A stretch of 64,000 nucleotides of DNA from Planctomycetaceae bacterium. Lineage in GTDB: Bacteria; Planctomycetota; Planctomycetia; Pirellulales; Pirellulaceae. The translations under genes and the position numbers were made by a program. Positions within the stretch are counted from its first letter, which is position 1. The number at the start of each line of letters is the position of its first letter. The stretch covers positions 1 through 64,000 of the forward strand of contig JAAYDI010000108.1 of assembly GCA_012729315.1 (NCBI GenBank), given 5' to 3'. The notes under the pieces were generated by a model, which was not told the DNA's origin, did not search any database, and saw only the letters and a list, made by a program, of their open reading frames with translations. Below are positions 10,986-13,759 of the stretch, one piece after another.

Positions 10986-11480
10986 CGCGTGGCCTCCTCG
11001 CGCCTCGATGTCGCCGTGTGACTTCCCCCGGACGACACGGGCCCCCGGGGCGGTGGCGGCTGGCCCGGACCTGCCGTCGTCCGGACCCTTTTCTTGCCGT
11101 TGCCGTCGCCGCAGCATACCAGCGCGACTCAGACGCAGCCAAGCAGGGGGACGGTGGCCGGCGCGTTACGGCTCCTGCGAGCCGTCACCACAACGTGGCG
11201 GTGCTGATGCTCGGCCAGATCCACCAGTGCGGCGAGCGCGAGTTCTTCCGCGCGCATTCGGATGTCCAGTTCACAGTGAATTGCTGCGAATTGCCGCTGT
11301 TTCACATTGCAATGCAGGGTGAGATGCGTCAAGCTGCATTGGCACCGGGGCTGCCGCGCTGCCGCGGGCGTGCCACGCCGGGGGACGACCCTGTGTTGAC
11401 CGACGAATACGGCAACGTCGCGATCGTACACGGCCTTGCAGGAATCCCCGTCCGCGGCTGGACGGTAGCGAGATCTAGTC
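10986..11480. other. Divergent intergenic region
   Basis: These 495 bp separate the peptide-transporter operon (minus) from acetate kinase (plus), so at least two promoters should lie here. A two-copy decamer (GAATTGCTGC, GAATTGCCGC) lies near 11278-11297 and the palindrome CATTGCAATG near 11305-11314. No clear promoter box or small gene is seen. Confidence 0.4.
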
Positions 11481-12683
11481 ATGAATGTGCTCGTGTTCAA
11501 CTGCGGCAGCTCGTCTCTCAAGTACCGGCTGATCGCCATGCCTGCCGAAGAGCAGCTTTCGGGAGGCGAAGCGCAGCGGATTGGCCCCCCGACGGCCAAG
11601 CCATCCTGCCTCGTGCTCAACCGTGGAGCGGCCGGCAAGGAGACCCGCGTCACACCGATGCGGGACCATGCAGAAGCACTGCAGGAAGTGGTCCACGCGC
11701 TGCGCGAGACCCCCGGGGCGACGCCCGATGTGATCGGCCATCGACTCGTCAATGGCGGCCCGACCATCACGGAATACTCGCTGGTGGACGATGCCGTGCT
11801 GGCGGAGTTGATTGCACAGCAGGATCTGGCACCGCTCCACAACCCGCCGGCAATCGCGACGATTCAGGCCTGCCGCCACGTGTTTCCCGGCTTGCCGCAG
11901 GTCGTCATCTCGGACACCGCCTTCCACCGCACGATCCCCGACTACGCGCGGGCTTATGCGATTCCCCATGCGTTGAGTCGCGAGTTGGGGATTCGCAAGT
12001 ATGGATACCATGGCATCAGCCACCAGTATGTGGTGACGGAGACGGCCCGCCTGATGAACGTGCCGCTGGACCAGTTCCGTGGTGTGAGCTGTCACCTGGG
12101 CAGCGGCGGCGCCAGCCTGTGTGCGGTGGTCCACGGGCAGTCGGTAGACAACACCATGGGCTACTCGCCGCTACAGGGACTGATCATGAGCACCCGGTGC
12201 GGTGATCTGGACCCGGGCGTCACGCTGCGGTTTCTGGCCGAAGCGCGGGGCGACAAGGTGGCCGTCGAGGAGCGACTCAACAACCGCAGCGGCGTGTTGG
12301 GCCTGTCCGGCACATCGGCCGACATCCGCGATGTGCTGGAAGCGGTTGCCGGTGACCCTGCGTCCACCCGGGCACGCGTCACGGCCGACGTGTACTTGTG
12401 GCGTCTGAAAAAGTACCTGGGCGCGTACCTGGTCCTCGTGGGCGATGCCCAGGCCGTCATCTTCACCGACACGATCGGCGAAACGGTGCCCGAGGTGCGT
12501 GAGGCCGTCTGCTCGGGCATGGACGTGTTCGGCATCGCCATTGACCACGAGCGAAACATCGGAGCGGACCAGCTCCCGGCCGATGTGGCCACAGCGGGCA
12601 GTCGTGTCCGCGTGTGGGCCGTTGCCACCAACGAAGAAATCTCCATTGCACGTTCCACCTACAAAGCCCAATGCACATCCTGA
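11481..12683 (+). CDS. ackA: Acetate kinase
   Basis: The 400-residue protein interconverts acetyl phosphate + ADP with acetate + ATP. It shows the full family set: N-terminal NVLVFNCGSSSLKY, the Arg-containing GHRLVNGG, SDTAFHRTIP with the catalytic Asp, YGYHGISHQYV with the catalytic His, STRCGDLDPG with the second catalytic Arg, and the C-terminal TNEEISIAR with the metal-linked Glu. Length is normal. No phosphotransacetylase is next to it, so acetyl phosphate may come from another route such as phosphoketolase; that is inference. Its last 13 bases overlap the start of a diverged paralogue, which implies translational coupling. Confidence 0.95.
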   Translation: MNVLVFNCGSSSLKYRLIAMPAEEQLSGGEAQRIGPPTAKPSCLVLNRGAAGKETRVTPMRDHAEALQEVVHALRETPGATPDVIGHRLVNGGPTITEYSLVDDAVLAELIAQQDLAPLHNPPAIATIQACRHVFPGLPQVVISDTAFHRTIPDYARAYAIPHALSRELGIRKYGYHGISHQYVVTETARLMNVPLDQFRGVSCHLGSGGASLCAVVHGQSVDNTMGYSPLQGLIMSTRCGDLDPGVTLRFLAEARGDKVAVEERLNNRSGVLGLSGTSADIRDVLEAVAGDPASTRARVTADVYLWRLKKYLGAYLVLVGDAQAVIFTDTIGETVPEVREAVCSGMDVFGIAIDHERNIGADQLPADVATAGSRVRVWAVATNEEISIARSTYKAQCTS

Positions 12684-13759
12684 CGCTCCAGCCCACACTC
12701 CGCGGTCTGGCCTTTGCTGCGTTCACCGAGGGATCGGACCAACCCGCCGTCGAGTCGCGGCTGACACTCAACCAGTTCGACCGCAGCACGCACCTGTTTC
12801 CCCCGGACCTGTTCGCCCGCATGAACGAGACGCTCCGCCGGGCGGAACTGCCGCCACCCACCGCCATTGGCGTGCACGCGCTCTACGGCGGCGACCGCTT
12901 CGCCACGCCGGTGTTCGCAAGTGACGACGTGTTGTCAGAACTGGAAACGCTGGCGCCGCAGGCGCCGTTGCTTGTGCCGAACCTCGTGGAGCTGACCCGC
13001 TCCGTCCGCCACACGTACCGCACAGCGCCTGTGGTGCTGGCCTTCGAAACCGCGTTCTTCGTGAATCTCCCGCAGTGCGAACAGTGGTATGGGCTGGATC
13101 TGGAACTGATGGTATCCCAGGCGATCCGGCGGTTCGGTTATCACGGCCTGTTTCACGAAGCGGCCTGCCGCGCGGCGGCCCGCCACCGGCGACTCTCAGC
13201 GCCGCGAGTCCTGTCGCTGTGCCTGGAACCACGCCCCGAACTGGCCGCCTGCCAGGGCCGCCGGCCGGTCATGGTCACCGGCGGCAATACGCTGATCGAG
13301 GGGCTGCCCGGAGAAACGACGTGCGGCGACCTGGATCCGAGTGTCGTCCTCAAACTGGCCCACGACACCCACTGGGGACCGGAGGAGGCCAGCCGCGTCC
13401 TGACGAGCGAAAGTGGGCTGCGCGGCCTGCTCGGGCGCGCCGTGACGCTCGCCGAAGTGCTCGGCAGCACCGGCGCATCGCTGCAGCTTGCGCGCGACGT
13501 GTTTCTGCACTGTGTGCTGCGGGCCTGCGGCGCCGGCATCGCCGCCCTGGAGGGCGTCGACGCAATTGTCTATTCAGGGCGGTACGCTGCGTCCGGTGCC
13601 GCCGTGCAGGCGTGGCTGGGTCCGCGTCTGGCGCGTGCTACCCGCTGCGACATTCCGCACCTGATCCACGCCCGCACCTTGTCGCAGCACGTCCGCGACG
13701 TGACCCGCGTCCTGGTACTCGAGGACAAAGGCCGCACGCGTCAAACGGCAGGCCACTGA
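12671..13759 (+). CDS. Degenerate acetate kinase paralogue
   Basis: This 362-residue protein starts at an ATG inside the last codons of ackA. It keeps the family outline but not the chemistry. GHRxVxGG has become GVHALYGGDRF (Arg lost), FDTAFH has become FETAFF (Asp to Glu, His lost), and the TR-GDLDP segment has become TTCGDLDPS (Arg to Thr). The HG of the FGYHGLFHE segment remains, and the TNEE end is replaced by VLVLEDKG. It is therefore probably not an active kinase. A regulatory or scaffolding partner of AckA is a reasonable guess. The frame is intact and the codon use normal, so it is not an obvious pseudogene. Confidence 0.88.
   Translation: MHILTLQPTLRGLAFAAFTEGSDQPAVESRLTLNQFDRSTHLFPPDLFARMNETLRRAELPPPTAIGVHALYGGDRFATPVFASDDVLSELETLAPQAPLLVPNLVELTRSVRHTYRTAPVVLAFETAFFVNLPQCEQWYGLDLELMVSQAIRRFGYHGLFHEAACRAAARHRRLSAPRVLSLCLEPRPELAACQGRRPVMVTGGNTLIEGLPGETTCGDLDPSVVLKLAHDTHWGPEEASRVLTSESGLRGLLGRAVTLAEVLGSTGASLQLARDVFLHCVLRACGAGIAALEGVDAIVYSGRYAASGAAVQAWLGPRLARATRCDIPHLIHARTLSQHVRDVTRVLVLEDKGRTRQTAGH

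Follow-up and report, generated by a model that had tools for sequence, protein, structure and literature searches.

Why should a gene for acetate kinase overlap a second gene of the same family whose product has lost most of its catalytic residues? The question is raised by a 64,000-nucleotide stretch from a Planctomycetaceae bacterium (assembly GCA_012729315.1, contig JAAYDI010000108.1, positions 1 to 64,000 of the forward strand; hereafter, the window). In it, ackA (P0001, 400 aa; 11481..12683, plus strand) runs into a catalytically degraded AckA paralogue on the same strand (P0002, 362 aa; 12671..13759). Acetate kinase is a textbook homodimer. We rate at about even the chance that the paralogue serves the acetate kinase encoded ahead of it as a non-catalytic partner subunit, made in step with that enzyme by translational coupling. 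The paralogue is held by purifying selection and is not decaying, and the nucleotide-pocket motifs of the window AckA, as aligned, differ from the ones usual in ATP acetate kinases. Complex formation and the phosphoryl donor are matters that we infer.

An overlapping gene pair under selection

P0001 scores 353.4 bits against PF00871 (cut-off 22) and 343 bits against TIGR00016 (cut-off 293.4), above both thresholds. P0002 reaches 99.4 bits with PF00871 across residues 64-303, also above the cut-off of 22, and falls under that of TIGR00016 (90.6 versus 293.4 bits); the two proteins share 26% identity over 256 columns (BLASTP, E 7e-19). As the initial annotation had noticed, the second frame begins 13 bp ahead of the end of ackA: its ATG lies at 12671, and positions 12671..12683 (plus strand, ATGCACATCCTGA, ackA stop included) are common to both frames. 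The length and register of this overlap are identical in the window's own genome (G000), in the planctomycete metagenome-assembled genome (MAG) JAMOAF01 (G744), and in two further genomes, G745 and G759. A split or misassembled gene is ruled out by this identical architecture in four assemblies. Upstream of the paralogue start, inspection by eye found no GGAG, GAGG or AGGA within 20 nt in any of the four genomes, as expected if translation re-initiates there. A promoter scan found none, with 0.4 expected, and is uninformative.

Selection on the two genes was compared by Nei-Gojobori ratios of nonsynonymous to synonymous substitution (dN/dS), computed from codon alignments in the six pairwise comparisons among the four genomes. 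The ratio was 0.126-0.175 for AckA and 0.178-0.309 for the paralogue; since dS between the window and its relatives is near saturation (0.96-1.03 for AckA, 1.16-1.42 for the paralogue), these ratios are rough, although their direction is clear. Moreover, the paralogue shows 1.7-4.1 times as many differences at third codon positions as at first or second ones, and its indels are confined to the vicinity of alignment column 40 and the C-terminus, with no frameshift or internal stop in the four genomes. A pseudogene is ruled out by dN/dS and conservation. A degenerate paralogue under selection beside an active twin, the situation known from the trypanosome prozyme, is found in all four genomes.

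The pair is rare and patchy among the genomes searched, through loss or transfer. When 84,980 species genomes were scanned with the paralogue as single query, a search that reaches close relatives only (G745 and G759 were not among its matches), one relative emerged, the Planctomycetota MAG contig JAMOAF010000608.1 of G744 (locus L034), where AckA (178-1380) and the paralogue (1368-2453) again overlap by 13 bp. Identity between the window and G744 copies is 78% for AckA and about 56-57% for the paralogue (56% over residues 1-352). Full-length paralogues were found in 3 of 197 genomes drawn as relatives of G744, itself included (G744, G745 and G759, at least 578 bits), and the same three came from 296 genomes drawn as relatives of G759, together with one partial match that is an ordinary AckA. 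In G745 and G759, AckA lies directly upstream of the paralogue with the identical 13-bp overlap; AckA thus precedes it in all four paralogue-bearing genomes, and a like AckA also stands alone in G098. The initial annotation proposed an obligate heteromer or pseudo-enzyme regulator, coupled in translation to AckA, and this is supported in part. Absence of conservation and frameshifts in relatives were two of the three outcomes named beforehand as refuting it. Instead, the overlapping pair recurs in every genome with the paralogue, each copy free of frameshifts and under purifying selection.

Among 241 family, 392 phylum and 146 order genomes (overlapping sets; the phylum and family searches scored at most five and eight candidates per genome), only G000 held the paralogue. 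The next-best matches reached 144 (family), 153 (phylum) and 119 (order) bits, versus at least 745 bits for self. Such distant relatives of P0002 (119-153 bits) were rejected, being far under the true ones at 578 bits or more, and those read lacked the paralogue motifs; the partial match among the G759 relatives (G883, 159.7 bits, L130) was likewise rejected as an AckA with intact motifs. G146, the sole other genome of the same genus among the matches listed, carries three AckAs, each on a contig of its own, and lacks the pair. Across 108 AckA loci, with flanks mostly of about 1.5 kb and some ended by contig ends, the seven showing the pair have two AckA-like frames of at least 150 aa, and the remaining 101 have exactly one.

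Loops lost and fold kept in the paralogue

The initial annotation held that the second copy had lost both catalytic Arg motifs, the Asp of DTAFH and the TNEE end, with its fold outline and open frame preserved. Our reference list of catalytic residues is that of the acetate kinase MtACK. The PHOSPHATE1 residues, Asn211, Gly239, Gly331 and Pro232 of MtACK are named in print, and residue roles are given in PMC4390882 (this and all other papers are cited from excerpts). The equivalents of MtACK Ser10, Lys14, Asp148, His208, Asn211, Arg241, Gly331 and Glu384 are changed in all four paralogues. Asp148 is replaced by Glu, His208 by Cys, Asn211 by Pro where the pair AckAs have Ser, and Gly331 by Arg where they have Thr. 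The statement on the Arg motifs is right for the window copy and, at the Arg241 place, for all four, but the Arg91 place is still Arg in the other three paralogues. The His123 equivalent is also lost in the window paralogue only (kept in 3/4), and that of His180 in G745 only. Altogether, 86 fixed differences separate the paralogue set from the AckA set, including S10L, D145E, H205C, S208P and T331R (P0001 numbering).

The replaced segments are themselves conserved. LEPRPELAAC stands in place of the PHOSPHATE2 loop (13223..13252, plus strand, as are all features below) and VYSGRYA in place of the ADENOSINE motif (13568..13588), both invariant in the four paralogues, and the core of LOOP3 is kept without its catalytic Arg as CGDLDPS (13322..13342). 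A long helix formed by residues 269-293 (13475..13549) lies in a highly conserved stretch and probably corresponds to domain-II helix alpha-II1. Furthermore, invariance among the paralogues peaks in AckA columns 201-320 (81/114) and is lowest in columns 1-80 (15/61); AckA, by contrast, is strongly conserved at its N-terminal phosphate loop (36/40 in columns 1-40). According to the excerpts of PMC3475010, the AckA dimer is held chiefly by domain II, of whose interface alpha-II1 is a part, and the conserved block of the paralogue may accordingly serve dimerisation.

The open frame (12671-13759) and the fold outline are indeed preserved. Foldseek with the P0002 model returned acetate and propionate kinases at ranks 1-38, with template modelling (TM) scores of about 0.5-0.64 and a root-mean-square deviation of about 9 Å. 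The TM scores are only moderate because the model is of middling quality (mean predicted local distance difference test, pLDDT, 67.6, with poor stretches within residues 127-248), and it was used for the fold only; the poor model of P0001 (pLDDT 45) was not used. As to whether P0002 arose as a duplicate of its neighbour, sisterhood was rejected neither with the pair AckAs (p 0.33) nor with the wider Entamoeba-type group (p 0.45), but its branch is very long.

Entamoeba-type marks in the AckA partner

The description of ackA as intact holds for its frame and for most catalytic residues: P0001 keeps the phosphate-1 loop, Arg88, His120, Asp145, His177, His205, Arg239, Glu385 and NEE. It does not extend to the nucleotide pocket, where the motifs are unlike those of ordinary ATP acetate kinases. 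In PMC5517563, as excerpted, the pyrophosphate (PPi)-dependent Entamoeba enzyme and four unassayed Anaerolineaceae homologues share a second Gly in PHOSPHATE2, an Asp in ADENOSINE adjacent to position 331, and a residue other than Gly at 331 itself. P0001 has an extra Gly in its PHOSPHATE2 loop, CHLGSGGAS (12090..12116), and, in its ADENOSINE motif, VIFTDTIGETV (12456..12488), Asp330 replacing Ala/Gly and Thr331 replacing Gly. Its LOOP3, MSTRCG (12186..12203), carries Ser at the place of MtACK Gly239 as in Entamoeba (residue roles per PMC4390882), a less telling feature found in 12 of 124 AckA-like rows.

Both marks (GSGGAS and FTDTIGE) occur in all four pair AckAs and in the stand-alone AckA of G098 (P0006; L019:1291-2502, contig C16), a solitary Entamoeba-type gene without a twin, beside an unrelated gene on the opposite strand. 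The combination of extra Gly and Asp330 was confined to 6 of the 124 distinct AckA-like rows (query matches, mostly planctomycete and not a random sample, counted after the four paralogues were dropped), made up of the four pair AckAs plus those of G098 and Entamoeba (4h0o). Non-Gly at 331 was found in those six and in one other row (L093). Neither mark was present in the 24 best non-self AckAs retrieved from 392 phylum genomes by a profile built on the five AckAs that carry the marks (0/24).

With the marker columns taken out, a maximum-likelihood analysis of 58 rows joins G098 to Entamoeba (100/98) and both to the pair AckAs (83/88); in a 36-row tree with motif columns removed, the pair AckAs join the Entamoeba group (92/90). 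The grouping of Entamoeba-type AckAs in the tree is suggestive only. The resemblance is not complete: position 331 is Thr in P0001, Gln in Entamoeba and Asp in Chloroflexi, and Lys14 is kept in P0001, with the Entamoeba enzyme (EhACK, PDB 4h0o) and the G098 AckA sharing a change to Thr. EhACK and the Anaerolineaceae homologues are nevertheless like P0001 in the extra Gly, the Asp before 331 and the non-Gly 331, and EhACK also in the LOOP3 Ser. The excerpts of the EhACK literature describe no partner paralogue, unlike what is found for the pair AckA. ATP acetate kinases such as MtACK (1tuu) and that of T. maritima (2iir) resemble P0001 in family, length and most catalytic residues; they differ from it in their nucleotide-pocket motifs and in having no degenerate twin beside them. 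The active subunit probably does not act as a standard ATP acetate kinase, and it may use pyrophosphate/phosphate or another donor.

Role of the pair and its surroundings

If the paralogue is a partner subunit, ribosomes finishing ackA would re-initiate at the overlapping ATG (termination-reinitiation), and both proteins would thereby be made close together and in a set ratio. The paralogue would pair with AckA through domain II, where its conservation is concentrated, to give an AckA/pseudo-AckA heteromer. In it the pseudo-subunit would activate, stabilise or regulate the active subunit, as dead paralogues do elsewhere. Short overlaps are enriched among genes of heteromeric complexes, according to excerpts of PMC10666635. 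A more specific version, a bacterial two-subunit PPi acetate kinase in which an Entamoeba-type subunit needs its translationally coupled dead paralogue and both once formed a three-gene module with an M20 hydrolase supplying the carboxylic acid, appears rather unlikely to us.

Several observations weigh against such a partnership or against an unusual donor. The overlap measures 13 bp versus the usual 1 or 4 nt. The paralogue departs from AckA at most residues of the homodimer pocket (PMC3475010, excerpted; positions mapped by numbering offset), with D223M, M226G and Y312A fixed, so its interface would differ from that of the homodimer. The model is poor over part of the conserved block, AckA evolves more slowly than the paralogue, and the pair genomes total four, three of which were drawn as relatives of each other. 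On the side of the donor, the placement with Entamoeba (83/88) lies under the tool's star, and non-Asn at MtACK 211 is common among ordinary planctomycete AckAs. Moreover, exchanges of pocket residues left the donor unchanged in the excerpted experiments of PMC5517563, and the donor can therefore not be read from motifs.

The main rival, an independent ligand-binding or catalytic role, we also hold to be rather unlikely; here P0002 would use its former active-site cleft for another ligand or reaction, co-expressed with AckA and not bound to it. The invariant LEPRPELAAC and VYSGRYA that replaced the former nucleotide loops are not random and would suit such a role, as would the partial retention of acid-side residues (the H123 and R91 places in 3/4, H180 in 3/4). 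However, AckA is the neighbour in all four genomes, no known catalytic motif was recognised, and the fixed register of the overlap suggests a stoichiometric link. Less probable still is a ligand-sensing regulator that acts elsewhere, like the ROK repressors, and is merely co-regulated with AckA. The AckA fold with remodelled catalytic loops is compatible with this, and the Foldseek list has two members of the superfamily, Mlc and a ROK repressor, far down at ranks 44 and 47, but the 362 residues of the paralogue contain no second Pfam domain and hence no DNA-binding domain.

Slightly less probable again is an ordinary pair, in which a plain ATP acetate kinase with neutral motif changes has a second protein that only stabilises it. 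The catalytic residues kept by P0001 (phosphate-1 loop, Arg88, His120, Asp145, His177, Arg239 and NEE) and the unpredictability of the donor from motif residues alone (PMC5517563, excerpted) agree with it. Against it, Asn211Ser or Gly331Ala/Gln alone greatly cuts the ATP activity of MtACK in excerpts of PMC4390882, and all four pair AckAs carry fixed differences at both of these places and in loop length. A decaying tandem duplicate whose frame is still open deserves hardly any credence. Lost motifs and evolution faster than that of AckA (57% versus 78% identity to the G744 copies) are what decay would produce, but dN/dS of 0.18-0.31, frames without frameshift or internal stop in four genomes, and a paralogue dS above 1 between the window and its relatives, a long time for a neutral frame to remain open, speak against it.

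A partner subunit of this kind has parallels outside the family. In plant PPi-phosphofructokinase, of a different family and an analogy only, the alpha/beta enzyme combines a catalytic and a degenerate regulatory paralogue and uses PPi. In trypanosomes, activation of S-adenosylmethionine decarboxylase (AdoMetDC) by its dead paralogue is established (PMC5201418, excerpted). AdoMetDC/prozyme and deoxyhypusine synthase (excerpts of PMC5201418 and PMC3663545) resemble the pair in joining an active enzyme to a conserved dead paralogue; their folds are unrelated to it, and the complex is shown there and inferred here. The fatty acid kinase FakA/FakB (PMC9136124, excerpted) is likewise a two-component acyl kinase, but FakB is a fatty-acid-binding protein and not a kinase paralogue. 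As of 2017, use of pyrophosphate was known for the Entamoeba enzyme alone, according to the excerpts of PMC5517563, and among the titles listed by our literature search, with subscription papers largely outside it, none dealt with an acetate kinase that is heteromeric or with a PPi-type enzyme from planctomycetes. If the partnership is real, a bacterial Entamoeba-type kinase with a dead twin would offer a tractable system for the choice between ATP and pyrophosphate in this family and for the route by which a dead paralogue turns into a fixed partner.

In relatives, the module has a third gene, encoding an M20 hydrolase. A whole copy (P0011) lies immediately upstream in G759 (L122), its stop adjoining the ackA start; it is M20 by Pfam and YgeY-like, although under the NCBIfam cut-off (185.6 versus 321 bits). 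In G744 and G745, ackA is preceded by a C-terminal M20 piece, at the end of the contig, and a different contig carries an N-terminal piece. The window retains only a frameshifted remnant of the gene's end, roughly 24 codons long (11405..11478), with 57% identity over 21 aa to the C-terminus encoded upstream in L034 (E 0.006) at the exact syntenic place, the frameshift being judged by eye. No close full M20 copy was found in the window's genome (best 36 bits); in this lineage the intact pair has outlasted the M20 gene, which speaks for the partner reading. A predicted frame with a tandemly repeated GRHGGACLLLWRTARRSVPA-like peptide also lies in the G759 locus (L122:4664-5100).

Two divergent POT/MFS transporters lie upstream of the M20 tail in the window; downstream of the pair, and set off from it by a gap, comes a separate large gene whose product has HEAT, GSDH-like and cytochrome c domains. 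Five of the eight window frames put to Pfam gave no match, and some may be wrong frames; no conclusion draws on them. GGDD presumably marks PPi-type phosphofructokinases (PFK), and the window genome has two PFK genes, one with GGDG and one with GGDD. We give this little weight, as we do the three PPi-dependent phosphofructokinases of the planctomycete Thermogutta (PMC5673643, excerpted).

The window genome's other AckA (contig C51) lies among genes resembling PduL, aldehyde dehydrogenase and class II aldolase, and planctomycete microcompartment loci with acetate kinase and class II aldolase are reported in excerpts of PMC4207490. This C51 protein (L002, L114), in a microcompartment-like locus, belongs to a common planctomycete AckA subfamily (40/103 rows by motif filter) with FKAVHGG or FKAVFGG for HRVVHGG and ET-FH for DTAFH, that is, Lys for Arg91 and Glu for Asp148.

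Other AckA-like proteins met in the searches include three single frames that fuse a cyclic-nucleotide (cNMP)-binding domain, an acetate kinase and a PduL-type phosphotransacylase (L078:703-3273 in G146, of the same genus; L076:523-3135 in G559; L066:730-3135 in G297). These are perhaps cNMP-gated acyl-CoA/acetate enzymes. L093 (G664, contig C587) is another degenerate AckA-like protein on a long branch, with VLISGALVKDS at the ADENOSINE place and a PAREEL end; no link to the pair was seen. Finally, two AckA matches were in two pieces, lying in two frames in one case (G151, contig C98, 3863-5139) and in the other within a single 650-aa frame with extra residues between them (G016, contig C109, 2252-3565).

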